Origin: Brachycybe producta
Lineage: Eukaryota > Arthropoda > Diplopoda > Playtdesmida > Andrognathidae
DNA length: 64,000 bases
Direction: 5' to 3'
Assembly: GCA_036925085.1 (NCBI GenBank)
Contig: JAUPFP010000041.1
Coordinates: forward strand, 1,456,001-1,520,000
Positions 15,425-56,159 of the stretch are shown piece after piece. The position numbers were made by a program, and so were the translations under genes. Position 1 is the first letter of the stretch. The number at the start of each line of letters is the position of its first letter. Below the pieces are notes generated by a model, which saw nothing but the letters and a program-made list of their open reading frames with translations, made no database searches and had not been told where the DNA came from.

Positions 15425-15426
15425 AT

Positions 15427-18900: not shown

Positions 18901-19014
18901 TGACGTTGGTAGAGCATGCCGGCCCTGGCCAGCTGCTTCTCGTGGAGCCGCACCAGAAAGCCTTAGGTGGACGTGGTGTGTTAGCAGTGGCAGGCATCGC
19001 CGCAGCTAACCGGC

Positions 19015-22784: not shown

Positions 22785-22859
22785 AGGCTGGAACAAGAAG
22801 AAATCGAGACAAAAGTAAGTCCCTCTAATGGAATTTCCTTCTCCTGCCTGTTGGCAGTT

Positions 22860-23470: not shown

Positions 23471-23479
23471 TGTTTGATA

Positions 23480-26266
23480 GGTCCACCACGGAAAAGGAGA
23501 AAGGCGACGGGAGTGGCCGACGGTCCCCCTCCCTCAGCCCGCTGCATCCTGGGGATGCAAGGCTGTTGGAGTCGGGATCGGTGGGCTCCCCATCATCTGG
23601 CGAACCGGAAATGGCTGACGCCACCGTGGAATCTGTTGATTCCCCGGCGGCAGAGGCCGTGGAAGGTCCGGAGTCTGCCCAGTCGACTCCGACCGGTGTC
23701 GGAGCCTTCTGGGGCAGATACCTGCAGTCTCCCACCAGGGATACGGCTGCTACCACCGTTCAGTCAGTGGCGGCGGTAGTTTCTCCGGTTGGAGAGCCTG
23801 CAGAAGCGGGTGTTGATGGTGGGAAAGTGGCTACCGGTGTGGTAACCGCTAGTACCCCGGAACCCGGGTCTCCGTCTGTTCGAGACCTCCTAGATTGGTC
23901 TAGGGTGGTCGTCTCCTTGCGAGCGTCCTTCATAGTCATAGACACGGAGATGGAGGTCGAAACCACCGTTGATTCGGTGGCTGACGCCTCCAGGCAGTGT
24001 CGGAGCCATAACGCCTCTTCAGAGGGCTCTTCGGAGTCTGACGGGAGTAGTTCGGCCTCCGAGGGTAAACCGTCTGGGACGGGATCCCCCGGAGTTCTTC
24101 CCGCCGATCCAATGTCTTTGGAGGCCGTGGCTGTGTCCTTGGCCGAAGAACAAGGCCGCTTGGATCGGTTGGATGAAGCTAGACGGGACATGGTCCAGGA
24201 AGGTGGCTTCCTGGTCGGGGACCATCGATTCTTCATCGGGGAGATTCCGACCGTGCAGGTGAGGAAGGACGGCGCGAAGAAGCGCAAGAAGAAGTCCGGA
24301 GCTGCACGGATCACTGCCAGGGCCAAGGCTCTCGCAGAGAGAGAGGCAATGCTTAAAGCTAAGGAGGAGGCGTTGAAGAAGTTCACGCCTGCTGTGGGGC
24401 TTCGAGCAGAGACTCTCGCCCGCCCTGACGGTTGTTCAGGGGCTGCTTGGCCAGAGAAACCGGCTGCTGGATCGGGTCCGCCCGAGGCAGTGGCTGGCCA
24501 CTCCGGCTGGCAGTTGGACAACCCGAAGAAAGACCGGCGAGCGGAGAAGAAGGCTACTCAGCCTCCAATACCCGCCCCCAGTAAAACGGGAAAATCTGTG
24601 AGTGGTGGTGGTGGCAAGGGACAAAAAGGTCCCGTCCTCGCACCCCACCAGTGGCTGAAAGCTCGCGGGGCAAGAAGGCCAGGTCCTCAGGTCGAGGAAA
24701 GGCCTCCGAACCTCGGAAGCCAGAGAGCTTGGAGGACAAGCTCAAACGGCTTCAGGCTCAAGCAGCGAGCTTGCACCGACAAATCGCTCGTGCGGTCGGT
24801 GCAGGTGAGCGGCAAGAGTTTGAGCGCCGGGCTGCGGAGTTCCCTCACCTGCAGGGAATGCCTGCCCGGAGTCCGCTCAAAACAGAGGAAATTCCTGTCG
24901 GTCGTGGCATCCCGCCTATTGCGAGCGCCACGACCATCGCTGGCCAGAAGCGAATCGCCGAGAGGGAGGCGATGCAGGCTTCCAGTGCACCAGCCCATGG
25001 TGCGGAAGCCAAAGCTACTGGTGGCAAGAGTCAGCCGACTTGCACCGAAGGAGAAGTCTTTCCTCCGGGATGGCCGAGGAAGATTTGTTTCCGGACAATC
25101 ATCCTCGACTGTCACTTTGGCTAAGGGCACTTCTACGAAGAAGAGTACGGCTCTGGCCGGAAAACCTTCGAAGAAGTCTGAAAAGGCGAAGGGGGCTAAC
25201 CACCCGCATAAGCCTGATCGGCCCAGTAAGTCGTCGGGGTCAGTTAAGTCTGACACGACGCATGGTCAACCTTCCTCTCACGGGAAGAAAAAGAAAAAGA
25301 AGCACGCCGGCCGGGAGTCAACCGATCCATACCCGTCCCGTTGAGGCGGCGCGGATAAATGGCAGGTCGATGCGCGACGTTTTGGTCGGCATGCCTCCAT
25401 CCTCCCCGAAGGTGGATGCGGTCTCAAGCCTGCGGGTTCGAGCAGTGGGAACCCTGCACCGTGTGATTTTGCCCTCACCTAGGGGCGAAGGAACCTCGGT
25501 TGCAGGAGTCAGTGTTCCCACAAGATGTGACCCCGTGACCCCCAGTGGGGGTACACCCTTCTCTCTGGTCCATGGCGGCGGGGTATTTGATACCCTAGGA
25601 CCTGAAACGTCAACCTCCCCTAGGCCTGAGGCTGAGGGACGGCATATTGGCGCATTGCCCCCGTATTCAGATGCAGAGGTGTATCTGAATAACCAGCTTG
25701 GTCTCTGGCAGGACCAGCCGGGAATGGAGGGTTGCCAATACCACGGCTACTACCGTCTGGATGAGCCACTTCCAGAGCCGTGGGTAACAAGGCTACCGCC
25801 GTACAACATGCGCCATGTGGTGGCGTTTGGTTGTGGAGATTTTCTGGTGGTCATGGTCGTAAACCCGGTCCAGCAAACATTTGCTATTTTGGATGTGGTG
25901 GGGCTAGATGCCGGGATAGTTCGTCTAGCCCGGCGTGCAGCCCCATTCATCCGTTTGCTGGGATGCGACTTAGGAGGTATGGCTGGACAGTTCATTACTG
26001 AGCCTCTACCAGGGTGCGAGACCGAGCCCGCGGTTGTCTTGGTGAACCTCCTAACAAGTCGGACGCTTCACACGCGTCCGCAACTCCAGAATATTCCTTT
26101 CGAAGAATTCCGTGCCCTGGAGGAAAGCCGTCTTAGGGGGACAGTCTTCGATACTGGTTTTGGGTTCCGTAACACCCAGATGTGCCTATGGTGGGCACGT
26201 CGGTGGGCTGCGGAGTGGATGGGCTCCACTTTCGCGACACCGCCAGAAAAGCTGTCCGGTACCTAA
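23480..26266 (+). pseudogene. Extra 3' ORF of family 1, unknown function
   Basis: An accessory protein of some 900 residues between integrase and the 3' LTR, read in three frames with shifts near 24650, 25070 and 25350. It starts with a Ser/Pro/Gly-rich low-complexity part, then a basic coil (KKRKKKSGAARITARAKALA). A further coil (LEDKLKRLQAQAASLHRQI) and a Lys/Ser-rich stretch follow. The folded C-terminal part (about 25660-26260) contains YLNNQLGLWQ, RLPPYNMRHVV, FLVVMVVNPVQQTFAILDVVG and CLWWARRWAAEW. That part resembles the C-terminus of the ORF at 48343-50520. It is not a membrane Env protein: I see no signal peptide or membrane anchor. Function not known. Confidence 0.7.
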
Positions 26267-26343
26267 GAAGGTCAGGTTCGGGGAGCAATCCTGGCTGGCT
26301 TGACTGACCTGTTCCCGAGACGAAACAGGGAAGTTGAGAGGAT

Positions 26344-27098
26344 TGTGGCAACCTGGTCTGCTCAAATTTTAATTTTGATTGAGCAGACGAATTTCCCTAT
26401 GGTGGTCTACCTGACAGCTACAGTAGGCTGTTGGGACGGACGCCATTTTGGTGCCAGTAGACCTCTCACCATGAAGTCTATGGGTGAGAGGTCAGATGTG
26501 ACCTCTGTCCCCTCCAGGTGGAGTTGCCTGGAGGTTTCCTGTGGCCTAGTCAGCCACAGGATCTGGGCAGTTGGTTGTAGGCTTCAAGTAGGACTAGACC
26601 TGTGGGTAGAGGTCAGGTAGACCTCCACTGTCCAGCCTCTGGATCATCTTTTGTGCCTTGGCCTTTAGGCCTTTGTTTGCTACCTATTTATGGGGGCTTG
26701 GCTGGTAGTGGATTACCAGCCAAGTTGTGTAAATATTTACTGCCATCGTATTTTATCATCTTTCTCATCGTAAATGAATTAAAACACTTATTCATCTTAC
26801 TTTGTGTCCGTGTCTTTATTTGGGGAGTACCGCGGAGGGTGGGTTTTCCGGTTGGGGTCAACATCACCATCTTCACCGTCTTGTTTCGGCCGGTACTCGT
26901 GTCGGCTCGAAGTATAACTGGTGTTCTTCCGCGATATTCTCGGCGTGGTCTTTCGTCGTGTCCGTCGTGGGTGGCTCCAGGAGCCGACACATCCGAAGGG
27001 AACACCGTGGGAGAGGCGGCTACAGTAAGGAGCCGGTTGACGGTAAGTTTTTGCAGTTAATTTACCGGGTTATTGTAACGGTCCGGCGGGACGTTACA
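26344..27098 (+). repeat. Outer 3' LTR
   Basis: 755 bp with TGT..ACA termini. At most positions where LTR A and LTR B differ it agrees with A, for example GGCTTCAAGTAGGACTAGAC and AGTGGATTACCAG. It lacks about 18 bp near 27025 that the other two have. It is preceded by purine-rich GGGAAGTTGAGAGGAT (26328-26343), the likely polypurine tract, and followed by CTCG. Confidence 0.93.
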
Positions 27099-27420
27099 CT
27101 CGCTTAATTCATTTATTTTCGAAAATAAAACGACTTTCATTTAGTTTACTGTGCATTGAAATTTTTTTTGAAGCTATTTTGATGAACGGCGGAACGGTCC
27201 GAACATCGGTAAGAACAATCGGAAAAATAGTAGGAACAGTCCGAAGGTTTGGTTTAGTAAAATTAAGTTGTTGCAGGGAGTCTAGGAACGGAGACCCCGA
27301 CATTTTTTTTAAGAATTATTAAATCAAACTAGTCCATTGTTCCGAGTGTTTCCTAATTTGTTCAATGGAAGGAACGGTCGGTAAAAATGGACAATAACCA
27401 ACCAATTAGAAGTTGCGTTC
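27099..27420. repeat. Remnant of the hAT-type repeat hit by the LTR element
   Basis: The sequence resumes the MITE body after the target duplication: CTTAATTC, then GAAAATAAAACGACTTTCAT, AGGGAGTCTAGG and the GGAACGGTCGG foldback segment. These match 2660-2720 and 2985-3110. It ends without a clear inverted repeat near 27410. Confidence 0.7.
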
Positions 27421-27522
27421 GTCATAACAAGGGCGGGGCCAAATGAAGTTCTCCACAATTTCTAACTGCCTGTCATTCGCTCAGCATACAACCATATATC
27501 ATTAATAACAAACGAACCTTAC

Positions 27523-27651
27523 CTTGAAAATCGTCTCATCTGATTTCCGACTATCGTTCGTAGTCCTTGGCTTCTTCATCAATAACGAACCTTCTTGTTT
27601 CTCTTCGTCGCCTCCGACAGTCGCGTATCGACGTTTGGATTCGCCGTCCAT
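27523..27651 (-). CDS. Candidate first coding exon, unassigned
   Basis: On the minus strand an ATG at 27651 opens 43 codons (MDGESKRRYATVGGDEE..KSDETIFK) ending exactly at a GTAAGG donor (27522). Composition is charged and low-complexity until the last residues, as in N-termini of nuclear RNA- or DNA-binding proteins. DETIFK just before the junction would suit the start of a KH-type domain, but this is a guess. The next exon would lie left of 27520, where I find only repeat and LTR sequence, so the LTR element may sit in its first intron or the gene may be incomplete. Confidence 0.4.
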
Positions 27652-30600
27652 TTGTTTTTCTCTCTCGGCCTCTCTCCCTTCCTTCCTTGAATCCTTCCCT
27701 CCCTCCCTCTGAAAGAAAGCAAATCGCGCCGTGAATTTATGAAATTGGGAATGATAGCGACAATAATAGTAAATACCGGTAAAACAATATTCGCGCCGAA
27801 AAAAATTAGGTCATGTAATCACGTTTACCTTTTTCAAAATCCAACGATAATATCGTTTCGTTCTTCGTCTCCTTTGTGTGAGAACAGCTCTTCTATTAAT
27901 GTGTCAATCTCCCTCTTTCGAATAAAAGAAGGCACGATAATACACAACTACGGTCATTTTTCGAAGCTACGGCCATAAGAAGACAATAAAAGCGAAAAAG
28001 AAACTAGTATGGCGCATCATTGGAACAATTTTCTATGGAGACATTCGCCATAAACATTACACCCATTTCAAGCGAATCTTATTTCATAATTTACACGTCA
28101 TAGTTGTATCCATGGTTGACAAATAAGAATTACTATTTTGTGCCAAAACTGAATGTAGCCACTAGATGGCGCAACCTGTATTAAGAGCTTCACATACTAA
28201 TGAATAACGATACTATATTACTATATATTTACGGAGCGTACGAGATTCTCACTCGATGTCGGCCCCTTGAAAACATCATGCCATACTGTATGAAATTCAT
28301 TCTTGAATTTCCTTTGCCGTAATCCTCATTAGAAAGATGTCTTCCTTCTAGCTTCAAAAAGCAGACGATGTTTCACTCACCTTTAGCACTTTATGGAGTT
28401 CATTTATCTTTATTCATTTATCTTGCTTTTAATTTGATATCTGGAATTCAATTTTATGCTGGTTACTGAAAATTAGAGCTTTCGAAATCCCGAATTTATA
28501 TAAACCAAGACAAGACATTCACACTTTAATTTTCGGTATCCATTGATCAGTGCCGCAACTAGGAATTTTGCGCACGGAGCCTACATTACTGTGAACGCCC
28601 CTTACCTCCATACAGGCTACTCAAACAAATTTGAGTAGTTAGAATAGTGTGAATAAATGAGAATTTTTAGGCTTGCAAGTGTTATACCTAGTACACACCT
28701 GATAAATTAAATGCATTTAAATGTGTTCTACAGAGCCCTGTGAAGGGCAAACAAACAATATGTCGAATTCAATTTATTCAGTTACTACTTAAATATAATC
28801 AGATAAACTATTGACAAAATAGCGATTTAGTATTTCAATTTAAAATAATAAAAGTCAATTTTTATTTGGTTCCTGTCCTTAACTGGATTCCGTATAATTA
28901 ACGTAAACACATTTAATTTGAATTCCTTTAACTCGTGTGTTTACAAGGTATTACAAGGCTTTAAATGAAAAACTACCATATTCACTTTAGTAGGTGTTAC
29001 TTATAGCACACAGCGTGCAACTTTTTGTAAATTTTGCAAATTGCACGACTGGTTTACTAGTGTGAAGAATTTAAATAATAACATGAAAACTACTAAATTA
29101 ATGTGCAATAAGAAAAATAATGGAAAAAAAAAGTAGAATTTCAAAATTTATAACTTTTTTAATTTTAATTTCTAAACGTTTGGCGCCCCTGTTTGTTGGC
29201 GCCCGGAGATTAACTTTCCCCATCCTCCTCGTTGTTGCGCCACTGCCATTGATCCAGAATTAAAGTTTCAATATCCAAAAGTGACCTGCCATCCATTGCC
29301 ATTGGTGGCACATATATCTGTAATATACACCGGGTTTAGTAAACATCGAGTGACCACAATAACAATAAAAGTTTTCATACTATGCTGTGACACTCTTCCT
29401 AAATTATAGTTGACACAGCGACCACTTATAAGCAATGTTCAGTTGTCGACATCCAGATTTAACCGACTAAATTTGAATACCCAGATAAACGCAGATAATA
29501 AGTAAAACGCTTAATAATGATGCAACCCTAGAAACCAAATTTATTACACGCCCCAGTCCTTAGTAAGGCGCGAAACTGTTAATTCTACCAACCTTGGACG
29601 TGGGATACATCAACTTCCTCAAGAGATCAAAGGTGAATAACTCCATTAGAGAGGAGCACACTTTCTGAATTGACATCTGATGGTAACAAAAGCAAAGTTC
29701 ATCGTATTGTTGCCCAGAGACTCATTCATCCCAATTTCATTTGGTGCTTTTTCAAATTCGTGCATTTAAGAACTACCTAAAAAATGGCAAGAAATGGGAT
29801 CATTTTTATGACATTTACGTTTTATTTTTTTATTTTTTTTAATATAAAGAAATTAAAAATGAAGACAAGCCACAGAATTTAATATATATGATCGTAAAAA
29901 TGCATATATTTATTTGTAAAATAATTTCACTATGTATAAGGATGTCCTTCAAATAATATCATATAAATAAGATGTTGCCATATGTAACATTATATAAAAA
30001 ATGTTGAAATATTCTTGGTAAGAATTAACTAATATAGTAATCGGTGTTATTGGAACATGTTCTCTTTTTTTTCCTTATTTCCCCTATTTTCCTAGTTCAC
30101 AAATTCACATTAAAATTCGCATTTGTTCTAAAACTTCCAATTATACCCCTCTTCCCCCTAAAAAAAGAACTTTTATAATTCAACAAGTTTTTTAATCACC
30201 TTGTCATTTCGTCTCCTTGAGCCTCAACAATAGGGCCACCTGCATAAAATAAAATTTTATGATTTTTTTTTGCAATATTTCTTTTATCATAAAAATATAC
30301 AACGAGGGCCACTCAAAATGTGTCCTCATTATAACGGGCGTATGAAATGATACGTAATGAACAAAAAAACATTTAAAATTACCCTCGCAAAACATTTACG
30401 GTCAAATAATGTCGACATTTTCCCTTTTAGCAATTAAACTCAAGGAATTGAAAAATAAAACAACATTGCGACGAACTTACACTTGATTTTTCCCATTATT
30501 TTCGTTACTGAGATCAAAATAGCGACTGCAATCGTAAAGAACGTCGGACACTTGCAAAAGATATTAAAATGACGAAAGATATTTATACGCTTTGCTGACC

Positions 30601-31029
30601 ACTAGGTTGCGCCACAATCGCACTTATCAATCGATACAGCAGTCGTATCGATATAAATAATGGGACGTCATTATGCAATCGGCGCCAAAAATAAAACTAC
30701 ATTGATGTGGTTATGCGGCTGCGAGTAATTGTCTTTCATTAGTATTTTCAAACTCGCACAAAAAGCTAAATTTTAAAGATAATATGAAAACACCCTTAAG
30801 TGATTGACCTACACTTATGATCTCTAAAACACATTTAAGTTTCTCTTCATTTTACATCTAACAGACAGAATAATCATGGTTCGAGAGCCGTATTAGTAAC
30901 ATGATTTCTGTTTCTTTGTGTACTCCAACAGTTAATATCGTAACTTAATTTATTTGTACCTTTTAAACAGACGACTGCTATACATGTATACTGGGGAAAA
31001 AATACTATACACATTACATTCTTTGACTT
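27652..31029. other. AT-rich intergenic DNA, no gene recognised
   Basis: I see no splice-compatible conserved coding segment on either strand. A partial copy of the dispersed inverted-repeat family lies at 30775-30876. A short GC-richer stretch near 29160-29260 looks like a decayed transposon end. Confidence 0.5.
30775..30876. repeat. Partial copy of a dispersed foldback MITE family
   Basis: It carries one end of the family: AAACACCCTTAAGTGATTGA.., CTCTAAAACACATTTAAG and terminal GACAGAATAA. Fuller copies are at 37.5, 44.7, 60.4 and 62.3 kb. Confidence 0.65.
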
Positions 31030-33866
31030 TTAAGCCGCAAATTTAATCATGAAATCCTTCAAGTCCAATTGAGGCGAAAAATGAAGATTCTAAAATAATC
31101 AAATGATTTTCAATTAGTTTATATTTTACTGAAATATAAGTACAAATCATACACACCTTTTCGTTGGCTAAATGCAAGATTCACTCGAAAGCAATAGGTA
31201 TACTGACATTTTGTGTCATTTCTGACGATATTACTTTAGGCAATCGACGGTAAACGTCGAGAAATGATTGCTCCATTGCATCTGTCAAAGGAGCGTCGTC
31301 ATCTTGAAAAGTGGTATCTCTATTTCCAAAATTTTCCAGATGCCCTCTTTGAGACGCTTCACATTGATACGTTTAGCCATACGTGCCAACGGAATGTCAA
31401 ATTTGGCTACTCGCCACGGCTGTTGGACAAGGTTATCACCGGTGAAAGCTGCCATCATTTGACTCATCGTTCCATCCTGACTTTCGAGCTGAGTATCGAA
31501 CCCAACGTTTGATTCGGGGAATCCTCGAGATGTTGACGGAGACGCACGATTGTCACTTCCGTCGTAACTTGTCTCACGTCTGTCATCTGGAATGCCTGGA
31601 CAAAAGTTTTCAACATCGTTAGCATTTTCGTAGTTGTAGTTTTGTATGTCGGCATCTGTATTTTGTACGCAAGACGGTTTCTGACGGATCTAAACGGAGG
31701 CGAAAACAAAAGATGATTATAATAAAACTTCCCATTAAAAATGCTGTAGATTGTTACACACGGCAGCTTTAGGATTCGTAAACAACTGGTACAATGTCTT
31801 CGTATCGTAGTGGATATCCTCAGGTAGAGTAGTAACTTCAGTATTCCAGAGTTTTATTGTTTCTTTCGTAAACGTCAATCTTGCCTTTGATTTTGCAAAA
31901 AAGCGTTCAATCTCCTCTGAATCTACGTCATAATCCTGTATCACAGCTGTCTTCTTAGCCCTCGGTTTGCGTTCTTTAGGGTCCTTAGCCATTGCGATTC
32001 CTGACGAATAGAGATATCTCATCTTTATAAATTTTTAACGGGAGAAAATCGTCATACGGCCCTAAAAGGTTGCAGTTTCGTTATGAAGACCTTTTGATAG
32101 CGGTTTAATGTTCCAGTGATTCAGTCCAGCCCAAGCCGTTTCGAAGTCTTTAATAAAGTACGAATATTCGCTTGGTTCAGTGGCTAACATCTGAGTTAAA
32201 TCCATGCTGAAAGTAAAAACACACTTAGAAATGAACAAATCAACAATTGATTTTGAAACGATGCTAACTTTGGAACAACTTCTGTTGGATCTCTTTCAGT
32301 TTCATGAATCGAATTAGGATTCGCCACAGTGTGATCTTCGACATTTTCTTCTCCTCCGCCTCCTCCTCCATCGTGAAAATCTTCATCTAAAATGTAAATC
32401 AGAGACTGTAGTTCTAGAATATATTGTTTTCCATCATTCGTAATAAAAAATAGATCTCAGATTACTGCATTCGTAGGCATCGTTTCGATCGGAACTGAGG
32501 TCTTTGTTTGATTCGTTTCTAACGTCCTCTGTAAATTCCCAGTTTGTTCCGAGCTGTGTTTTTTTAAAACAATGCGAATATAAATGTTTGACGTTTCTTT
32601 ACGTTGGTAAAAAAAAAGATGTCATTAATCAGACCGTATCTCCGAGTTTCCATGACCCAAACTCGAAATCAGCAAAAGGACAAATCTTTGTGGTTTTTGA
32701 AGCGATTATTCGAATAATATCGACAAAACTACTGATTTCAACAAAGCTAGCCTCCATTTGGCTTTTCGTCTGTTCTTCGGGCGACGAATGGCTCTTTTCC
32801 ATCGGATCCATCGAGTCTAAGACGAGCTCGCAGCCATCGTTACGACAACAAAGGCTACTCAAAAGAATACCACCACCGGCGCCTCCATCGGCAAACAGTT
32901 CCGTAGTTTTCCGAAACAACGGATCCACCTTCAAATTAAAAAAAGATTAGCTCATTAAGAGATCTTAATTACAATAAAATAAGATGACTGACTTCTAATT
33001 GTAGATCGAATTTGTTTGCATTCAAGGCTTTGACATTCTTTTCGATTGTTTTTCCTCGTTTTGCCTGAAATGAACGTAATTTAGAATGAGAACTCAAATA
33101 CATTAACGTCACTGCATAAAGAAAATCTAGGGGTTTCAAACAAATTCTTTTCTCTGGCAGTTTGAAAAAACGAAATTTTTTTAGCATAGTTTTGAAAACA
33201 ATAAAAAAAAAATCACCCCATTAATGAGTCAAAAGTATTTTAAAACCTCTTTTTTCTTCTTTTTAGCCCTTTCTCGACGGTCGTCACCACCTTCATCATC
33301 ATCGTTATCAACACCCGATTCACCATCGTCGTCACTCCTCATCCGCTTATCTTTCGCTCCTCCAGAAGAACGGCTGAGTCCACAAGCCATTTTCTGCGTT
33401 TCCGCATGAATACAATCCACTCTATAGGCATATATCTTAGTGCTCGCATCGAGTGTGCAACTCGCCACTTGGAAGTTGTTCATCTCCGAATCTTTCTTCT
33501 TGAGCATTTCGGCCATGTAATCAATTAAATGCAGCCCGAAAGCAATCTTCACGGTGATTTTCTGCAAGTGAACTGGTTTCATTATTACATGACAAACACA
33601 TAGAAAAATCGACTCTCTTTTCGTACGTTCTCAGCATTTAGTTTGATGCAGTCTTCGTAATGTTCAGCCAACTGTGCTGAAGTGAGCCCAGATAATAGGT
33701 TGGTCGAGTGAGAGTGCGAAGAATCAACTCCTCCTCCTCCTCCTCCTGAGGTGAAACCTACGGAAACGCGCCTGTCGTGCTGTTGACGTAGTTCCATTAC
33801 TCTGTTCCTTCTCCTCATCAATCTCTCCGCTTCGTCATCGTTCACAGGTAATGGATCGGTCGCCAT
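31030..33866 (-). CDS. NCAPH: Condensin complex subunit 2 (CAP-H / Barren), with two lesions
   Basis: NCAPH is the kleisin that closes the condensin I ring and is needed for chromosome compaction. Minus-strand exons: 33627-33866, 33247-33561, 32993-33064, 32635-32928, 32466-32553, 32269-32386, 32091-32206, 31762-32000, 31157-31689 and 31030-31089. Hallmarks: [93 protein letters not shown], and the C-terminal [14 protein letters not shown] and [10 protein letters not shown]. Joined, it gives about 691 codons (human 741). Two defects appear in exon 9: one base missing in an A-run after GIWKILE (near 31335), and TGA at 31181-31183 where Cys is usual. Exon 1 may extend upstream of the chosen ATG (33866). 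Head-to-head with SFR1. Confidence 0.9.
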
Positions 33867-34565: not shown

Positions 34566-35294
34566 ATGAATTCGCAGACTCCGAATTTGACAAAAACACC
34601 ATCGTCTGCGAAGGTTTTTTGTGTTGCCGACTCATCGTCATGGTACTAAAGAATGATTCCTCTCTTTCTGTTTTAGGTTATGAGTTCAAGTTTGAAGGAG
34701 AGACTTCGTAAACTAGGACGATATCATGGAACTCCTCCTTCCACGTCGACTGTTTCGCCGTTATCAGCAACGAATACGATTCCAAAAGAGGAAACACAAA
34801 CGCCAATTCTGGACAGATTGAGACTGACACAAAGGCGGACAAACCTCAGTCTAAAGCTAAAGCGTAAACTTAGTGACGAAGGAGAGGAAGATGACGGAGA
34901 TAAACACGAAATGAACGTCACGAAAGAACGGGGAAAGGAAGAAGGAAATGAAACAAAATGCAAACGGCGTTGTGTCCAAACTGAAAGAATAGGTGGTGAG
35001 ATTATGGGAGAGGCCGATGTTGATCGAGAACTCGCTTACATTCGAGAACAGATCGAAAAACGAAAGGAATTTCTACGTAAACTGAAGTTGGTCAAAGTGT
35101 ATCGCACGAAAAACGATCTGAATGGTCTTGAAGATACGATTGTCCAGTGGAGAGAGGTTTGTGTCGAAGCCTTGAAAGAATTGAGAGACAAATCGACGGT
35201 AGAACCGAAACCAACGTATGGAGGACTTTTGGATCATCTACAAATAGATCATAAGTTGGTTCGATACGACAAAGAGGAAAACTCTTTTGACTAA
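34566..35294 (+). CDS. SFR1: Swi5-dependent recombination repair protein 1 (SFR1/MEI5), intact
   Basis: SFR1 pairs with SWI5 and stimulates RAD51/DMC1 strand exchange. Exon 1 is 34566-34613 (16 codons, MNSQTPNLTKTPSSAK) with donor GTTTTT. Exon 2 is 34677-35294 after TTTTAG. The start of exon 2 has SSSLKERLRKLG, the conserved N-terminal SFR1 motif. A basic/acidic disordered part follows, then the coiled coil DRELAYIREQIEKRKEFLRK. The C-terminal domain has LKLVKVYRTKND, GLEDTIVQWREVC and YGGLLDHLQIDHKLVRYDKE. Length about 221 residues, similar to animal SFR1. No stop or frameshift. AATAAA lies at 35346-35351. Confidence 0.9.
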
Positions 35295-40232: not shown

Positions 40233-40291
40233 GAAATCTTAAAAAAGTTAAAAGTAAAAACACATTTCTAAAATAATAAAAACAAAGTGCA

Positions 40292-40305
40292 GTTGCCATG
40301 GCAAC
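40292..40305. promoter_or_regulatory. Perfect palindromic X-box (RFX site)
   Basis: GTTGCCATGGCAAC fits the RFX consensus exactly and is fully palindromic. RFX factors drive ciliary genes, IFT genes in particular. It lies about 75 bp inside intron 1 of the CLUAP1 locus, close to the start codon (40379-40381). Confidence 0.8.
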
Positions 40306-41033
40306 AAACACAAACATACCTCAAAACAAAAATAAACATAAATTTTTACAGTTTCCTACTTCGTAATTCACGATAAGACATTATTTTCGTAGTTCAAGAG
40401 TTCCAGTTCCTTTGAAGAAGGTTCAAATCGTATAATGAACTCGACAAAAAGTAATTTTGACAAGACTTTTAGGTTTCACCAGAAAATAACAGAACTGATG
40501 TCATCAACGTGGAAACGCTCAGCAGAGTCAGCATTAAAATTTGACACGATGTTTACTCATAACCATCCCTAGATAGCGCTACTTAATTAAATAGGATTCT
40601 CAACGTGAGGCCCAAAACGCCTCACATCATAGAAGAGAAAAGACCAACTGGCCCTCACAATGAATTAAATAACTTATAAAAATTCAATATTTATAAAAAG
40701 CTAAGATTTGATATACTATCAAAATACGAAAAACAAACAAACTAGAACGTGCTTTAGAAACTAGAAGGGTAGGGTAGCGTCTTTTTATGATGATATATTT
40801 CAAAATACACTTTTTGTGTGATTTTGAAAATAATAAAACTTTAATAAACATGAAAATACCATTAAGTGATTGAACTACAATTCTAGTTTATGAAACACAT
40901 TCAAATTTCTTTTCATTTTGCTGTTGAAAGATAAAATAATTAATCAGAATTTTTAAAAAATCAGCTGTTCACAAACAATCCGTATTTGTTTATTTATAGT
41001 TATTTAAATAACTATAAATGGATTGTTGGATTA

Positions 41034-41073
41034 TTTTTTTACTTTAATAATAATTATTATTAAAGTAAAAAAA
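41034..41073. repeat. Perfect 40-bp AT palindrome
   Basis: Seven T, then ACTTTAATAATAATTATTATTAAAGT (26 bases, in two halves of 13), then seven A. The two 20-bp halves are exact complements with no loop. A second palindrome (TATAGTTATTTAAATAACTA, 40996-41015) lies just left. Confidence 0.85.
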
Positions 41074-41675
41074 TTGCAAACAAATTCCGGAAATTGACAA
41101 TTACACAATGCAGAACTGTGGTACCTTCCGATAATTTAGTTAATTAAAAACCAAAAATAAAAACCCACCATTAATTTCCACAATAAATATACTATCATTT
41201 GCAAATAAACAACACACTATTTTTTTTAAAAAAATTTTTAATATAAAAATAAATGTTACCAAGAACCTAGTTTCATAAAAATAGAAATTCATTACAAGTT
41301 ACAAGTAAATTCACAATATTTCCTTGTAAATTGTCAACTTCTACTATGATTTCTAATAACAAAAATCTCTGCCTCAGAAATTCGAGGTCTCAGGTTCGAT
41401 CATTATCACGTTGCACAAATTGGAACAATCCTAGTATACGGTCCCCCTCACCAATTTAAATAAACTATAACTTGTTAAAAATATCTTGATGAGCTGAATA
41501 ATAATGCAAATTTAGTTTAGTGCAAACAAACCAAACATGCACAAAAAAGAGTGCAAAAGTTGGAGTTTACATGAAAGTATATGGCATTTTTAAAGTTTTT
41601 TTTTTGCTACATTAACATAAAGTAGGTGCATAATGACCTAATCAATTTTAAATAAAATCAAAATCACTTTAGAGG

Positions 41676-42104
41676 CTGTGCCACCCAGGCCCCTTGCAAC
41701 AAGCCTAAATTAACCCAACCAAACCAAACCTATCCTAGGTTAACTTAGCCCACCTATACAATATATAGGGTAAAAAAAACTTTTTTCAAAATGCCATTTA
41801 CCTCCATGTAAATTCTCACTTTTGCAGGCACTTTATTGTCCAAGTTCGTGGTTCATACCAAAAGACATTTGCATATTTCTTATTCATTTCGCCACAATCT
41901 TTCCAAATTTTATTTATTTAAATTATCGAGGGGGGCCCCTATACTAGAATTATACCTTCTAATGTGTAATTTACGCCATATTCATAAAATATATCAATCA
42001 AAATAAGTTGTTTTGAAAAACGCATTTTAAAAAATGTGTCCCTTATTACAAAGTTGGGTTAAGTTAGGCTTGTTGCAGGGGGCCAGGGGCACAGCCCCTA
42101 TAAA
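41676..42104. mobile_element. Non-autonomous element with ~40-bp inverted ends
   Basis: The left end has GGCTGTGCCACCCAGGCCCC then TTGCAACAAGCCTAAATTAA. The right end has the complement form, TTAAGTTAGGCTTGTTGCAG then GGGGCCAGGGGCACAGCC. About 430 bp, no coding. The ends resemble the GTTGCAGGGGG..CACAGACCCC arms in the hAT-type foldback at 2.99-3.16 kb. Confidence 0.65.
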
Positions 42105-42884
42105 TGGATTATTAAGATACTTACCGGTATCTTGATAGTCCAATTATTTATTTTTTTTTTTATTTCGATTGATTATTTTTGAGCAATTTTTTTAGGATTG
42201 AACGATATATTTTGTTAAAATGCAATACACCACTTGCTTCTGAAGCAAAGGTGTAAAAATGCTTTTATGAATGTGAATAATTGTAACTTGCAATGGTTGT
42301 ATTTTTATGAAACAGGATCAAGGGTTGCATAAAATTCATGATTTATTGAAAATAAAAACAAATTAATAAAATTAGGTTTTTTTTTGAAAAATTATAATGG
42401 GATTTCTTCTATTGAAATCAATAATTTCGTTTATAATGTTAAACTTTTAAGATAAGTTTCAAAATAAAACTTTGCTTTATTTTAAATTTCGAAATTTATA
42501 ATTGAAATGAAAGTTTCAATTTTGAATGAGAAAAAAAAATCGTCTGTCGTCATAAGCTTCAAGTTACAGCATGGCGACTCTATAAATATTTTTTTCCCCT
42601 CCTAATTTTCATTAAAAAATCATGAAATTTAAATGCTGCAACCCAATCGTATTTCTTTTTTTGTTTGTTTTTTTATAAAAATATAAATTTCTTATAAGTT
42701 ATAATTATATAAAATGTGGTAACGACTGATATACTTAAAATTATAAATAAACAATGAATGAAACTAATGAAATGACTAGAAACTAAATGAACCAGTTCGA
42801 GTCCAAGAAATGAGACTCTACTCTTATCACAGCACTCTCAACGTTAACCAAACACACGAACTTTGAACCGGACTCCTCATATTA

Positions 42885-44595
42885 TTAATTCTTCTCGTAA
42901 GCCCCATCAAGATCATCAGATTCAGAACGATTAAAACAAAACCAATTCTGAAGGGAGATGAAAAACACATTTAAAATATTTTATCTCCTTTTCTTTTTTT
43001 CGTTTAGTTGACAACTCGGTTCAAAAGCTACCAACAAACCTGTAGAGTATTTCGGAAGGATCGTTTCGATTTGCCTATCGTCGGCTTAATCACTTTGTGA
43101 TTCTCCTTCTTAACCTGTAAAAATAAGAAGACGTTAGAACTTTTTTTGTTTTTAACGACTCTTGTAAAAAGAACCGACGTCACTTCACCTTTCTGCACAA
43201 TCTCCATCTTCCGACTGGTTTAGGCATCTGAAGAGCATCTGTGTCAAGATCAGAGAGTGTTTCGGCATTCGTTTCAACATGCCGAACTTCTTCGGGACAC
43301 TTCTGTTCACCGAAAGAGAGGGCCATTCGTACAGGTTCTTCCGTTTCTTCTTTGTTCTAGAAAAAAAAAACGAAGTCAATAAAATCTCAATGTGTTTTAA
43401 TATATCGCCGTGTACTGACCGATGGAGAGACCTTCCCATGTTTATGCTCGTTTAAGAGCAATTTTAGGTCGGTCAGGAATGCAGTCGGTACCCAAAACAG
43501 CTCCATCGCATTCTCAATCGTGAATGCCAAAAGTCTCACCAGATCGTCCTCCTTCAACTTCCAATCCACAGCTTTCATCTAGAAATGAGGGAAAACGTGC
43601 CGTTACAATGTTGGAAATAAACACGCACATGTCGTATCTCTTAAATTACCGTCCGTGGACGCAGAAGGCACTTTGCAAAGACGTTGGCTAAATTTCTTGC
43701 ATTTGTTTTGTTCGCATTGGATTCCAGTGCAACCCGATGCAACAGACAGAGAAGACGACGAAGGAGATTCCTCTCAATCTTCTCTATTCGATTCGCATCT
43801 TCGTGATCTTTAGAAAAATTAAAAGAAACCAATAAGTTCTGCATCAAAACAGTTCACAACGATTTCAATCATATAAATGTTACCGGCAATTTCACAAAAA
43901 ACATTAAAAAGCTGTTGAGTGAAAAGCGGATCTTTGAGACATTCCAATGTTTTCATCAAAACGTTGGCAAAAACGTAAGAGTCGTAAGGATTTTCGTTCG
44001 AAGCTAAATCAAAATCTGTTTGGCCGATGTGCAAGTCGAAACGCAGTTTCAGTTCAAGCGCTAATAGGCTGCTCGTTTCAAACAAATCTTCTCTGCAGAT
44101 ATCTACAATAAGAACAGTATTTCAGTATAAAGCGAGAAAAAATCTTGCTTTAAAGGTGTAACACTAACGTTTTTCTTGGCCAAGAACAGTCATTAGGGTG
44201 TTCAAGGTCTTGGCCAACTCTGGAGTGAGCGAAAAAATTGACTCCGCATTTTGTAATTCATCTGAAAGTAATAAAAACGATTACGAAAACTGAATAGTTA
44301 ATAATTTAAACGAACGTTTTTGAAAGAAATATTAAAAAATCTTTATAATTTAAATCGTATCAAAGGTTTTATTATTATTATTATTGTTAACTCTAACTAA
44401 AAAACCTTTTCCGTTCCCCTTCCACCCCAATTCGCAAGAAGAAGAACCGAAAAATCCGAACCTTCGTTGATAATTTTTGGGCGGTTTTTGCTCAAACCAG
44501 GTCATTTTGAAGACTGAAAAGTCTTCCTCCATTGGCAAATCCCAATGGTCTTCCAAATGATCTTCATTCAATTCCCACCACTGACCACTGGCCAT
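42885..44595 (-). CDS. RhoGAP-domain-like protein, intact, eight exons
   Basis: Exons (minus): 44406-44595, 44169-44261, 43884-44102, 43650-43807, 43420-43578, 43189-43356, 43040-43114 and 42885-42947, all with GT-AG sites. They join to 1125 nt, 374 residues, MASGQWWELNEDH.. to ..DGAYEKN, with no stop. The middle (about 70-280) follows the RhoGAP pattern: ELAKTLNTLMTVLGQEK, EDLFETSSLLALELKL, PYDSYVFANVLMKTLECLKDP, NLLRRLLCLLHRVA and NKTNARNLANVFAKCLLRP. In active RhoGAPs the segment like EDLF is GLFR with the arginine finger; here it reads DLFE, so GAP activity is doubtful. The tail is Lys/Arg-rich (RWRLCRKVKKENHK). Arrangement is loosely like ARHGAP11/19, but I cannot name the ortholog. Confidence 0.75.
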
Positions 44596-44684
44596 CTAAA
44601 AAATATAAAATCAATTACATGTTTGTCATTTTGTTATGGTTGTGTTTAATTTTGTGATGGTTTTCAAATATAAACGCCCCAGAA

Positions 44685-44956
44685 ACTCTACTTATTCTGA
44701 CTTTCAAAGTGAAAAATTAAAAAAATGTGAATGTTTTAGAAACTAGAAGGGTAGCTCATGTTGATATTTCTTAAATAAGCTTTTTGTCATTTGATATGAA
44801 TTTGAAATTGAAAATGACCAAACTGGAAGCAGACGTTATTGATTTTTAAATGTTTGTCTTTAAAACGTCTATTTTGAAAGATATCAACACTGACAATAAT
44901 AGTATGTAATACAATTACCCATCTAGTTTCTAAAAAACTTTAAAGATAGAATAATG
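44685..44956. repeat. Dispersed foldback MITE, full copy
   Basis: CTTATTCTGACTTTCAAAG at the left end and AAAGATAGAATAA at the right. Sub-terminal ATGTTTTAGAAACTAGAAGG is matched inversely by CCATCTAGTTTCTAAAAAAC. Confidence 0.7.
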
Positions 44957-44984
44957 GAAAATAACGAAAGGTGTTTCCACTTCC

Positions 44985-45445
44985 ATAGCCTCCTTATTGA
45001 CTCCGGTGATTGACGGTGAATTTTAAATTCACCGCTGCCAAATACATTAATTAGAGACACTTACCGTAACTTCAAAGTTGATTTTTTCCGTTACTTCTGG
45101 ACAGAATCTCAATATTTTGGTCATTATACATTCTTCGATGTTTCAGGAATTACGATTCGCTTTGTTTTTTTGCATTTATTCAATAATAATAAACTGGTAA
45201 TCAAGAATACGAGAAAGACACAAGAAACGTGACAGCTCATGTTGCAAGACAAATTGGTTTTGTTTACTATTAAGTTTTAACGGTCGTGTTCTACAGCTGA
45301 ATTTGGAAGAGGCTCCTCTTTACCTGTTCTCAACAGTGATTGGTCTAAATAGATATCACGTGACTCACCCCCCAAAGTCATGGTAGTCATTTAGAGCCCT
45401 ATATTAAGAGAGTAACGTCAATGAGTGATGCTTTTTGATTCGTTG
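44985..45445. repeat. Diverged copy of the 58-59 kb repeat unit
   Basis: It matches 58130-58600 and 59060-59550 in the same orientation, including GACAGAATCTCAATATTTTG, TGATTGGTC and GGAAGAGGCTCCTCTTTACC. On the minus strand it carries an exon-like stretch, TKILRFCPEVTEKINFEVT, ending at GTAAGTGTC. Origin unknown. Confidence 0.7.
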
Positions 45446-45539
45446 CTGCAATCACGTTGGAGCTGTACGCCATTTTGAATCCTAAGAATGGCATTCATTC
45501 AATGAAAGTATATGGCAGCATATTATTTGGCAGTCATCA

Positions 45540-46715
45540 TCATAATTTCCTGTACCTTATCCTGCAAGCAGCAGGGTCGGCCTTGCTGGTTCTAACTCTC
45601 CACTCGTTCCGATTTTGCACCAAGCCCCCATATCCCGTTTTACTACCACATCCCAGGTTTGCTTGGGTCTTCCTCTACCCCGTTTTATTCCCAGGTCTAA
45701 GTTCATTGCCTGCCTCAGCAGCCCATCTTCTCCGCTCCTGAGGACATGCCCAAACCACCGCAGCCTATTTTCCTGCATCTTTTCTACTATATTTGTTACC
45801 CCTACACTACCCCTAATAAAATCATTTCTGATCCTATCCATTCTGGTCACCCCACTCATAAAGCTTAAAATTCTCATCTCAGCTACATGCATTCTATCCT
45901 CATGCACCTTCTTGATTGCCCAACATTCTGACCCATACAACATACCTGGTCTGACTACTGTTCTATAAAACTTTCCCTTCAATTTTATAGGTAACTTCCT
46001 GTCACATAAAACCCCACTAGCCTGCCTCCACCTATGCCACCCTGCTTTTATCCGGTTTGTGATGTCTAAGTCTAAGCTCCCATCATCTTGAAGCACAGAT
46101 CCTAAATATTTGAAGTCATGCGCCTGCTGCATTAAACTGTCCCCAAGTCTAATCCCCTCATTCAACTGTTCTTGCCCATCCCACTGAAATTTCATGTACT
46201 CTGTTTTTGCCCTACTTATTTTCAACCCCTTTGATTCCAAGGCATTGCTAGTCTCCTCTAACCTTATCTCGAGTTCCATTTTGGAGTCCCCAACTAAGAC
46301 TATGTCATCTGCAAACAGCATACACCAGGGGACCTCCTGCCTCACCCCTGCCAGTAACTCATCCAGGACCAAAATAAATAGATATGGACTAAGTGCTGAA
46401 CCCTGGTGCACACCCATCCTAACACGAAAACTGTCAGAGAACCCCCAGGCAGTCTTAACGCTTGTTTATGCATCCCTATACATGTCCCTCACCATATCTA
46501 TATAACTCTCACCCACCCCCTTCTTCTGTAAGACCTCCCACAATAACTTCCGTGGCACTCTGTCATAGGCTTTCTCTAGATCTATAAATACCATGTGTAA
46601 CTCTTTCTTGGCAGCCCGAAATTTCTCAATAACTTGCCTTACGGCAAAAATAGGGTGCATTGTGGATTTTCCTGGCATAAACCCAAACTGACTTTTGGCA
46701 GTAAGCAATCTATTT
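45540..46715 (-). mobile_element. 5'-truncated non-LTR retrotransposon (RTE-like)
   Basis: Reverse transcriptase on the minus strand. Present: [65 protein letters not shown] (catalytic FADD), GLKISRAKTEYM and the C-terminal GRGRPKQTW. The motif style resembles the RTE clade. One in-frame TAA (46466-46468) interrupts it just before MGVHQ. The 5' part, including endonuclease, is missing upstream of 46715. The 3' end near 45540 has TGATGATGA-type sequence. Dead copy. Confidence 0.85.
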
Positions 46716-47053
46716 AATCTATTTAACTTAAGTATTAAATGAAATGAATCTATTTAAATAAAATAATATTAAACAAATTGTAGATAAAAGTATTACAGTA
46801 TATTGCACAGATCTTTGTAAAATAAATGCACTGTAGTTACTGTACGGTAGTTTAGTTTTCCAAATTAATCCTTTTGAAAGTTTCACAATTATGTTTATGA
46901 TATGTTTTTAAAATCAGAAATCTGTTTGACATGTAGGGGTGGAAAATTCATAAGCAATACAGTTTGTAAATACAAGTTACAAAAGCAATACAGCTTGGTA
47001 GATCATATGTCTTTTTTATACTTTTCACATGTAATTTAGCGATATACGTTAAA
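46716..47053. other. Short intergenic stretch
   Basis: AT-rich DNA between the LINE fragment and the THAP start codon. Presumably holds the promoter of the THAP gene, but no motif can be supported. Confidence 0.4.
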
Positions 47054-47206
47054 ATGCCTTGTTGTGTCGCCGTGAATTGCAACAACAGGACAGAAAAGGG
47101 TTTCCGTTTGTTTCGTTTCCCTTCTTACCCTCAATGGAAATCATTGTGGGTAACAAAAGTTTGGCAAGACTGTTGGGAACCACATGGTGGTTCTTATCTA
47201 TGTGAA
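47054..47206 (+). CDS. THAP zinc-finger gene, exon 1
   Basis: THAP domains are C2CH zinc fingers that bind DNA, often derived from P-element-type transposases. Exon 1 encodes 51 codons: MPCCVAVNCNNRTEKG.., FRLFRFPSYPQWKSLWV.., ending SYLCE at a GTAAGA donor (47207). The first Cys pair (MPCCVAVNC) fits the THAP start, Trp residues are in place, and C50 plus His at the start of exon 2 complete C-x2-H. The partner exon is 9.7 kb downstream at 56896 because an LTR element occupies the intron. Confidence 0.8.
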
Positions 47207-47252
47207 GTAAGATGACATTTCAAAATAATTGTGGACCTAATATATTTCATAT

Positions 47253-47939
47253 TGTGAGCTTTTGACATCAACCAATATTTTATTACCAACCTTCAGATGA
47301 CATTTTCTACTTTTCGTTTCTTCTCTGAGCAGTATGACACCTGCACAGAGAAGATCCGAGCTGTAGAGAGAGCTGGATGGAGACAGATTGTAGTCACTCT
47401 TCTGCATGGGGGTGTAATCGATGCAGGAGAGTGGCGGCCATCTCTCTCTCTTCCGGTTGATGCTGATATACATCTTCTCCATCGGTATTCCGACTAGAGA
47501 AGATGTTGTAGCTGCTGAGAATCGTATAGCTCCTGCCCTATGAAACCTCCGGCCTCTGAAGAGAAGTTATTTACAGAGACATAAAGACAACGCTACTTCT
47601 TGTTACAACACTTTTATTCATTCCTTGTAAGAAGTACAGATACAAGGGTGAATAGTAAAATACTAACTGGAAATCCTCAGGCCCATTGATTTGGAATGTA
47701 TCGCAAAAACAGGCAAAGGAAAGAACTGAGGAACAAAGAGGAACATGGTCCTTTTATACCTTGGACCTGTGTACACCTGCGAGGTGTAACCAGGTCCAAG
47801 TGACCATGGTCCTTTATGTATCAATCCGCCACTTGGGCATGAGTCAGAAAGGTGAGTCAGAGAGGAGGGAGGGACGGTTGAGAGTTGTTTACCCCCCAGG
47901 CTATGGTTTTGGCGGGATCACGATTTACAGGGTGTTACA
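47253..47939 (-). repeat. 3' LTR of the family 2 element
   Basis: On the minus strand it runs TGTAACACCCTG.. to ..AAAGCTCACA. It includes a TATA box (TATAAAAG, 47751-47758) and AATAAA near 47607. It differs from the partner LTR by only a few bases. Confidence 0.92.
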
Positions 47940-48342
47940 TACCCTCCAACTTTGCTTGGAGTACGCCCTCGTACTCCAGCCAAGGGTGGAAGGTTTTCAA
48001 GTTACGCAGCGGGGAGACATGGGTGGCTGAGGACTTACCGTGTACAGAGGTGGTTATGGAAAGGCACTGGCACCGAAGTGTCAGCGCCCTTAAAAATTGG
48101 AAAAGGCTGAAAACATAAAACAAAGATAATTAATGCTCGCTGAGTGGCGAGCCGCTATTGAAATCTAAAAAGAAAAGAACAGTTGCAACGTATTTTATTT
48201 TTTTATAAATTTTTCGATAATGCCACCCGGATGGGTGGCAACCACATGAGTACATGTGGCGCGCAGCTATCCCTGCTGCGGAGGGTGGGGAGGATCCTGG
48301 GTCCATGAACCGTACGGGGGGGTAATCCCGCCGGACCTGGCC

Positions 48343-50520
48343 TCATCGGTAGCTGGATGCGGCAGACAGCCATTGTCCCTGGTCGTCAGGTAGATCCCGG
48401 TGGAAGATATTGAAGATGTCCCGGTCCCCGATAATCTTGCGGGAGGACCGCTTGTTGTACAGTGTAGCCCAAGCGGCGTCCCACAAGACGGCGATTCGGT
48501 AACGAGGATCCGGTTCCGGAATGTAGTGACGGCTGGTACGGAACGTCTGTCCAGCTGGCAGTCTAAAGACGGAGTTGACGAAAGCTCCCAAAAGGGCTTC
48601 CGTGGCTTCATCGATGGCATCTCCGGCGAAACTGGTGGTTTCAACAATCCGTCTTCTTGGGAAGACGATGGTGATGAGGACACTTGTTAGGCGGGAGAGT
48701 CCCACGACATATCGCTCCCGGGGAGGGAGGTCCAGACGGGGAAACCCTTCCTCCAAAGAGAAGTGTCCTATGTAAAGGGTGTTGGCAGAGCGCACTTCGC
48801 GCTGCCAAGTGACCCACCGATTGTTGAGCAACCTCTCGCCGGAGGTGGCTGCACGGAACGGATGATCCAGCGGTAACCGCCCCAGAGTAGCCCCGGCATG
48901 GGGTACAGTGGGCGGTGCGGCTGGTCGGGCTGGTGTTGGAGCCGCAGGTTCCAAAGAAACTGATGCGCCCGTGATAGGCCTGGCATGGCGCAAGGCGGAC
49001 CGGGCCATATCGCGGGCCCGCTGACGTAGTCGCTTCGATGCCGACTTCCTGCTCAGCGCCTCCAGTGGCTTGGCACTTCCTGGTGCACGGCCCAGTGCTT
49101 CCATGGGGTCACCTCCCTGTCGCATGACGTCTTGCAGAAGGTTTGTGATGGCCTTCTGTTTTTTCAAGAACGCGGCACGCTCTGCGGAAGGTGGCGGCAT
49201 CAAAGGTGTAGGCGTAGGTTGTCCAGAAGGGCGGCCCGGAGGTGGCGGAGGAGGAGAGCGACGCGGGACCCAAGTAGGAGGGCCCCGAGTTTCATAGCGA
49301 TGGTCGCGGTCCAGTTGGACTCGGTGATCCTGTAGGTCTTGCCTGACCCTTGGGTCGAAGTTATTACGCGGCGGAGGGCCGCGTCCAGAGGAACCACGTT
49401 GTTCCTGCTGACTTCTTCCGTCGGGTCGGCGTCGGGGCGAAAGATGGGAACCACGTGGCGAAGAGCGACGTGGTTGTGGCCGTTGAAGAGAGTCTCGAGA
49501 AGAGTGGTGGCCCCTGTAGGACTGTTGAGGCTCCTTGGGGCGAGCCCCAGTGGGAACCTGAACACGAGCAGGTTGGGGAACCACCACTATGGAAGGTAGC
49601 TTTGGAGTCGGAGTTGGTGTGGCGGCCTCGCTGCGTGGAGGCGTGGCACATCGGGAGGTTGGTGGTGACGATAATGGTGTATGAGGAGGAGGCGGCGGAG
49701 TGATTGACGGCACCGGTGAGCAGTGTTGGAAAGGCTCTGGTGGCGTTATGGGTGGAGAAGGAGATGTGGAGAGGCCAGTTGTCAGGGTTGCTGGCGAGTT
49801 TGAGGATGGAGGTGATGACGTGGCCGATGACGTAACTCGGGCGGCTTCTTGGAGTCGGGCCTCGATTTGCAGGAGCTCCTCCTTCGGGAGTTGCGCCGTA
49901 CACGGTAAGCCCAGCTCGACAAGGCGGGCGCAAACCGCACGGAGGTACGCCAGATTGTCCTCCCCTTCCTTCTTATCTCTGGCTGCCCGACGAAGAGCAG
50001 CCTCCCTCTGCAGCTCCAAGTGGAGGTCTTCGAGGGGGGAGGGCACAGATCCACCTCCCCCACGCTTCCCTCTTGCTTCAGCTCCACCCGGAATGGGTTG
50101 ACCAGGCGCGATGCTATCGCGGAATGCCTGGTTAACCCCCCATGCCATGAGGTTGATATCGATGCGGTCTTCCCGCTCCTCCCAGTAGTGTTTTGATGTC
50201 GTGACGTCGAAGGGGACGATGCTGCTTGGAGCAGCAGGCTTCCCTTCGCGCCCGACATTGGCAGGTCGCTTGAAGCTTGCTTTTAGGCGCTTCTCCCCAC
50301 GCCGGTGAAAATTCTCCGGTTCGGAGGAGGTGCGGCGCCTATCTATTATGTTTGGCGACTCTCTTCTTGTTGTGGGCGCACTGGCGGCGCCCGCCTTTTG
50401 TGGCTGGCAGGTAGATTGAGAGAGGGGTTCAGCGGTCCCCGCCGTTCCACTCTCCGTCTCATCTTCACTAGAAGAGGCAGACATCATTCTGCCTCCTCTC
50501 CATGAGCCTCTACCTGGCAT
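48343..50520 (-). CDS. ORF2 of family 2 element, unknown function
   Basis: 725 codons in one open frame. N-terminal Ser/Glu/Arg-rich part, then a coil-like segment (EDLHLELQREAALRRAARDK, EELLQIEARLQEA). A very Pro/Ser-rich middle with many PPPP runs follows, then KKQKAITNLLQDVMRQ and a basic RQRARDMARSALRHA. A folded C-terminal part (about 555-725) has LLNNRWVTWQ, LDLPPRERYVVG, VLITIVFPRRRIVETTSFAG and YRIAVLWDAAWATL. These match in order and spacing the end of the family 1 3' ORF (YLNNQLGLWQ, RLPPYNMRHVV, LVVMVVNP.., CLWWARRWAAEW). No polymerase, protease or integrase motif and no membrane segment. It may be translated from a spliced RNA, as gag lies 1.4 kb upstream. Confidence 0.75.
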   Translation of the reverse strand: MPGRGSWRGGRMMSASSSEDETESGTAGTAEPLSQSTCQPQKAGAASAPTTRRESPNIIDRRRTSSEPENFHRRGEKRLKASFKRPANVGREGKPAAPSSIVPFDVTTSKHYWEEREDRIDINLMAWGVNQAFRDSIAPGQPIPGGAEARGKRGGGGSVPSPLEDLHLELQREAALRRAARDKKEGEDNLAYLRAVCARLVELGLPCTAQLPKEELLQIEARLQEAARVTSSATSSPPSSNSPATLTTGLSTSPSPPITPPEPFQHCSPVPSITPPPPPHTPLSSPPTSRCATPPRSEAATPTPTPKLPSIVVVPQPARVQVPTGARPKEPQQSYRGHHSSRDSLQRPQPRRSSPRGSHLSPRRRPDGRSQQEQRGSSGRGPPPRNNFDPRVRQDLQDHRVQLDRDHRYETRGPPTWVPRRSPPPPPPGRPSGQPTPTPLMPPPSAERAAFLKKQKAITNLLQDVMRQGGDPMEALGRAPGSAKPLEALSRKSASKRLRQRARDMARSALRHARPITGASVSLEPAAPTPARPAAPPTVPHAGATLGRLPLDHPFRAATSGERLLNNRWVTWQREVRSANTLYIGHFSLEEGFPRLDLPPRERYVVGLSRLTSVLITIVFPRRRIVETTSFAGDAIDEATEALLGAFVNSVFRLPAGQTFRTSRHYIPEPDPRYRIAVLWDAAWATLYNKRSSRKIIGDRDIFNIFHRDLPDDQGQWLSAASSYR

Positions 50521-56157: not shown

Positions 56158-56159
56158 AA

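Follow-up and report, generated by a model that had tools for sequence, protein, structure and literature searches.

Do two families of long terminal repeat (LTR) retrotransposons that lie within one stretch of a millipede genome share a protein domain and, if so, what might this domain do? The stretch, referred to here as the window, comprises 64,000 nucleotides of Brachycybe producta (contig JAUPFP010000041.1 of assembly GCA_036925085.1, positions 1,456,001 to 1,520,000 of the forward strand), and its features are given in window coordinates. A prior reading of this sequence, referred to here as the original prediction, proposed that an unnamed C-terminal domain, here called X, is present in both families. 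We found the domains where they had been placed, at approximately 25643-26263 on the plus strand (family 1) and at 48346-48900 on the minus strand (family 2). Our data indicate that X is homologous between families 1 and 2 and that several families of the B. producta genome contain it as an undescribed accessory module. The original prediction thus holds in its core, with corrections to the ORF structure, to one motif and to the relationship of the gags, and its interpretation is supported in part.

Homology and spread of X

The similarity between family 1 X and family 2 X is above chance in BLASTP (E 4e-5), and a comparison of profile hidden Markov models, by which the original prediction had proposed to judge the relationship, gave a significant score (hhalign of a family 1-type alignment of four rows against an alignment of the other types of 10 rows: E 3.3e-6 over 142 columns, probability 88). 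Furthermore, a profile that combined 13 domains of further families, and contained no window sequence, was searched against 1,203 window pieces and 1,000 shuffled domains and retrieved family 2 X at E 3.5e-44 and family 1 X at E 1.7e-4, while the best other entry scored E 0.86 and the best shuffled domain E 2.2. We consider it highly improbable that this similarity is the product of chance or of the convergence of short motifs. The best pairwise match has only 26 of 95 residues identical, and the reverse profile, built from three family 1-type rows, was not significant against family 2 X (E 0.39) and is the weakest of the tests; however, BLASTP, hhalign and the 13-domain profile agree with one another, and the other families bridge families 1 and 2. 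Most of the motif order that had been read in the two copies is preserved in the alignment, namely LNN-x4-WQ, Y-x-G, a P before the first hydrophobic strand of a pair and a strand ending in NP or FP. The exception is LW-x2-[AR]-x-WA, which is not a common motif: LWDAAWA of family 2 aligns with LVNLLTSR of family 1, and the CLWWARRWAA of family 1 lies in a tail without an aligned counterpart in family 2.

We asked whether further elements of the genome contain X, and it was found in additional families. The LNN-x4-WQ pattern, in codons that neither window copy uses, occurs at 132 places in the 295-Mb genome compared to 8 for a reversed control, and the LPP-x2-R-[HY]-VV pattern occurs at 278 places compared to 1, with nearly all of the 100 matches listed for the latter being family 2 sequence. 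Of all these places, 40 were retrieved (38 with the LNN pattern and 2 with the LPP pattern). By eye, X is present in 36 of the 38, many of them decayed; the other two (L061 and L079) were rejected by eye, as were both loci of the LPP pattern (L099 and L100). The intact domains fall, by eye and by tree, into seven types: family 1, A, family 2, C, D, E and F. An alignment of 17 rows, from which decayed copies and near-duplicates were excluded, contains five invariant residues (N27, W32, Q33, Y43 and E51 in family 2 numbering), while L25, N26, G45, P59, D141 and L170 each deviate in a single row. Queries of the F and E types gave 152 matches (listed identities 28-100%) and 150 matches (33-100%), respectively; both lists run into other types, and since 150 candidates were scored per search, copy numbers are lower bounds. 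Just outside the window lies a further F-like X (G000:C41:1521831-1522319), 59% identical and interrupted by one TGA; seven more places score nearly as it does and likewise have a single TGA, pointing to a repeated relic.

Fifteen pairs of X were compared for the ratio of nonsynonymous to synonymous substitution (dN/dS). In the eight pairs with an estimable dS this ratio was low (0.16-0.29), with dS above 2 in five of the eight; the remaining seven pairs were saturated. X is free of stop codons in 28 of 30 family 1 loci, a sample that includes the window copy and is biased, since it consists of the best-scoring matches.

Settings of X in families 1 and 2

The family 1 element occupies 12273-27098 on the plus strand, is flanked by a 4-bp target duplication (CTCG) and has outer LTRs that are 94.3% alike (5' LTR, 12273-13040; 3' LTR, 26344-27098). 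Between them are gag with a CCHC knuckle (16053-17828), an aspartic protease (PR) region (17883-19136; gag-asp_proteas at 9e-6, below its cut-off, and Asp_protease_2 at 2.3e-5, above its cut-off), a reverse transcriptase (RT)/RNase H piece (19768-20400; RVT_1 8.5e-10, RT_RNaseH_2 5.8e-13) and an integrase core piece (21028-21888; rve, E 9e-17). The window copy thus has the usual Ty3-like order, although with several frame breaks, and family 1 is a Ty3-like LTR retrotransposon by its LTRs, its short target duplication and its gag-PR-RT-RNase H-integrase content, the order being read from the coordinates. Integrase is followed by a linker (21870-25642) whose frames are broken in this copy, and then by X (25643-26263), which lies within a 480-codon open stretch (24824-26263) and has no Pfam match. 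Three 132-bp repeats, a length that is a multiple of three, are found in the linker at 23062-23449. Between its outer LTRs, this element also has a third, internal LTR at 14658-15424 and a duplicated block of LTR and 5' gag (12271-14657 and 14656-17053, 87% alike).

The original prediction described X as lying in an extra 3' open reading frame (ORF) of both families. This is correct for family 2 but not for family 1. In 11 family 1 copies, chosen because they appear in both the integrase and the X match lists with equal frame length, integrase and X share a single open frame of 1,929 to 2,966 codons (at least 2,879 codons in 8 of the 11), and the distance from integrase to X is 1,502 to 1,508 codons; many of the remaining copies have shorter or broken frames. 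In one F-type copy, a single open phase likewise runs from RNase H through integrase (zinc and core domains) and a linker of approximately 870 codons to X. The longest frames of E-type and C-type copies reach 2,350 and 2,097 codons, lengths that would fit the integrase-X layout of family 1 and F, which both types probably have. One F-type linker (L107) contains a single transmembrane (TM)-like segment between integrase and X, at residues 269-287.

The family 2 element (47253-56846, minus strand) has a 4-bp target duplication (ATAT) and LTRs of 687 bp that are 99.4% alike (5' LTR, 56160-56846; 3' LTR, 47253-47939). Its gag (51963-53849; Retrotrans_gag 5e-8, CCHC 4e-7) is separated from ORF2 by 1.4 kb (50521-51962) without an ORF of at least 150 codons on the element's strand. 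ORF2 (48346-50520, with its ATG at 50520) encodes 725 amino acids without a Pfam match, and X lies in the last 185 residues (48346-48900), after a proline-rich, basic N-terminal part of approximately 545 amino acids. A motif, ...I.PG...PGGAE, that seemed common to this N-terminal part and the F-type linker reached only E 0.04 over 24 residues in BLASTP and is not claimed.

PR was not found in the window copy of family 2, nor did the interval between its LTRs show an ORF for RT or integrase. Across the genome, the frames that contain family 2 X are mostly 727-754 codons long, in agreement with a separate ORF, and the PR matches of this family lie mostly within an open frame of 839 codons, which would be sufficient for gag and PR. 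In two copies PR contains DTG and scores above the Pfam cut-offs, so the family 2 aspartic protease looks intact. In 16 copies, chosen from the PR and X lists by nearness, the PR piece is 3,165 to 3,242 bases from X, and approximately 1.6 kb of that is ORF2; there is therefore no room for RT and integrase. Family 2 is thus a non-autonomous Ty3-like element, with LTRs, gag and PR (the last read in the two copies outside the window) and, in the window copy and the 16 others, without RT and integrase. Its X is 99-100% identical in all of the best 150 scored copies, and in 30 of these copies between 0 and 5 of the 555 bases depart from the window copy. This near-identity indicates that family 2 expanded recently, and its sequences point to a young, abundant and apparently pol-less family.

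We next considered whether X descended together with the rest of these elements or instead reached the families independently, or by recombination from one to another. The gags and LTRs of the two families had been described as not obviously alike, a claim that is too strong for gag (E 1e-26, 25.6% identity over 285 amino acids) and holds for the LTRs, between which there is no match of at least 80 bases at E 1e-10. The linkers of families 1 and 2 have no detectable similarity either, and X of family 1 and A sits on a long branch, both of which favor separate acquisition or exchange. There is also precedent: GDSL and DEDDy ORF3s are common to bdelloid LTR elements and other retroelements, such that elements of very different kinds have the same ORF3 types (PMC5408684). 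However, the gags are homologous, and X is found downstream of integrase in families 1 and F and downstream of gag-PR in family 2. Separate acquisition or exchange in place of common ancestry is therefore unlikely in our view. As described, the bdelloid ORF3s resemble X in being non-envelope extra proteins 3' of pol in several families, but they are GDSL or DEDDy enzymes with catalytic residues in place and are described as ORF3 (PMC5408684), whereas X is in the integrase frame in families 1 and F.

A relic of a third family (5593-11722, plus strand) consists of an LTR and gag region approximately 69% alike to family 2 at the DNA level, followed by a PR piece; X and a second LTR were not seen for it in the window. 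Among the best 150 scored matches of this PR piece, 100% identity is found only in the window itself, and the others are listed at 75-77%.

Fold and catalytic residues of X

Which known domains does X resemble? Among 5.8 billion proteins, with candidates being proteins of query-like length, family 1 X had no match at E 0.01, and family 2 ORF2 residues 540-725 and the 17-row profile each had none at E 0.1. These searches were at the protein level, and other eukaryote genomes were not searched as DNA, so absence from them is not shown. Sequence searches of the PDB gave nothing below E 0.5, and the 17 X domains gave nothing convincing in Pfam (best E 0.048, in one row).

The original prediction had noted a faint resemblance to Ulp1/C48 proteases. 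A low-confidence model of family 2 X points the same way: it consists of a helix carrying LNN, strands and a helix, and the fold matches listed for it are almost exclusively proteases of the CE clan (Ulp1/SENP, NEDP1, poxvirus I7L and African swine fever virus pS273R). The C48 counterpart of LNN is LND. Based on this model, the putative fold of X is most likely that of the CE clan with catalytic residues lost. Several observations weigh against this assignment. The model of family 1 X, which is poorer, does not match the CE clan; none of the 17 X domains matches C48 in Pfam; and hhalign of X against three C48 proteases gave no match (P 0.5).

The resemblance does not extend to the active site. 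No Cys or His is conserved throughout the 17 rows, the best columns containing Cys in 5 and His in 8, and the residue after D141, by eye the place of the Cys in DCG, is A, L, G, D or E. As a group, X therefore lacks what defines an active protease of the CE clan. We weighed whether it might nonetheless function as a CE-clan cysteine protease or deubiquitinase whose catalytic residues are atypically arranged, if not in all types then in family 1 and A. The fold of the family 2 model is compatible with this; furthermore, family 1 and A have a His in the R-H-V-V column, an Asp in ILDVVG or VLDVLG and a common GC some residues before the D141 column, and among the 30 family 1 loci RHVV is kept in 29, ILDVVG in 29 and GCETEPA in 26. 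Yet the other families lack the RHVV-column His (two E rows have a His one column earlier), and together with the scattered Cys and His and the variable residue after D141 this makes an active protease quite unlikely. If the catalytic residues are lost, then X should bind and not cut, and it may still bind a ubiquitin-like partner, as a CE-clan domain would.

Domains of this kind are described in other mobile elements. In Ginger1 transposases, a Gypsy-like integrase is followed on its C-terminal side by an Ulp1 or OTU domain, as integrase is followed by X in family 1, but Ginger1 is a DNA transposon with terminal inverted repeats (PMC2836005), whereas family 1 has LTRs, gag and RT, and X is without conserved catalytic residues. 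Family 1 as a Ginger1 transposon is excluded by its LTRs and RT. Nematode NeSL families and Utopia-1_TSP are retroelements with an Ulp1-like domain, but this domain is N-terminal, the elements are non-LTR elements and the domain is called a protease (PMC4640811). We found no description of an Ulp1 or CE-clan domain in a Ty3-like LTR element in the open-licence literature searched.

A possible role for X

We propose, with about an even chance of being right, that X is an inherited accessory domain, probably a dead Ulp1-like fold, that serves for binding in association with the Gag particle. One Ty3-like LTR lineage of this genome would have inherited X. It would then have been retained in families 1 and F at the extreme C terminus of the integrase frame, behind a long linker, from which the element's own protease would release it. 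In family 2, X would be made from its own message as a separate protein, alongside gag and the aspartic protease. In both settings it may stay with the Gag particle or its RNA and bind a partner from the host, for which ubiquitin, SUMO or a protein that carries either is a plausible candidate, and this binding might steer, stabilize or mature the particle. The fold is the reason for a ubiquitin-like protein, or its carrier, as a first guess at the partner. Since family 2 keeps LTRs, gag, PR and X, apparently without RT and integrase, X most likely works with Gag or RNA and not with the enzymes, by analogy with Athila. Pol-less Athila families are described as keeping gag and env ORFs under purifying selection, and family 2 resembles them in being non-autonomous, in multiplying and in keeping gag and a 3' ORF; however, these are plant elements whose 3' ORF is called env (PMC2410132), and family 2 also keeps an intact-looking aspartic protease.

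The same retention of X with gag where RT and integrase are missing is consistent with a packaging or chaperone protein unrelated to proteases, in which the basic N-terminal part would bind nucleic acid and X would dimerize. The composition of the N-terminal 545 residues of family 2 ORF2 (15% K+R, 15% P) fits such a protein, but the conserved part is X, which is rich in hydrophobic residues (ILVFMYW content of 34% compared to 17% in the N-terminal part), and the fold comparison points elsewhere. Overall, we think this explanation rather unlikely.

The position of X 3' of pol, and on its own ORF in family 2, is also that of an envelope. An envelope-like or cell-to-cell transfer protein would be in line with the TM-like segment of the F-type linker, and env-less Drosophila elements are described as using a short TM protein (PMC11952523). 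However, family 2 ORF2 has no TM-like window (Kyte-Doolittle, 19 residues) that could serve as an anchor, the sole TM-like window in the scanned family 1 pieces is the strand pair inside X, and family 1 has X and integrase in a common frame. These data make an envelope-like function very unlikely.

A more specific form of the binding-module proposal is that X is a non-cutting reader of ubiquitin or SUMO that arose from an Ulp1-like protease on the Pol end, and that pol-less satellites depend on gag, PR and this reader in cis. We hold it only tentatively and regard it as doubtful. If it is true, then X identifies a stage of the life cycle for which supply in trans is not possible. If the Ulp1-like fold is true, then the link between mobile elements and ubiquitin or SUMO known from Ginger1, Mutator-like elements and NeSL would extend to Ty3-like LTR elements, as binding in place of cutting. 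In any case, X is spread over a lineage, terminates the integrase frame of some families and is a stand-alone protein in a young family that seems pol-less, which provides a natural experiment on the proteins that an element has to supply on its own. The accessory parts of LTR elements known to us are mainly chromodomains, envelopes and captured enzymes. Chromodomains and DnaQ-like exonucleases are described as well-known examples of accessory domains in these elements (PMC6338049).

The window contains further features. An ORF at 34677-35294 (plus strand) encodes a Mei5/Sfr1 recombination-repair domain (PF10376, E 5.5e-11) and is probably a host gene. A reverse transcriptase ORF at 45557-46465 (minus strand; RVT_1, E 3.6e-16) looks non-LTR by eye. 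Finally, the regions at 63005-63960 and 60648-61298 contain a satellite spaced at 164 bp and an array whose period is approximately 13 bp.
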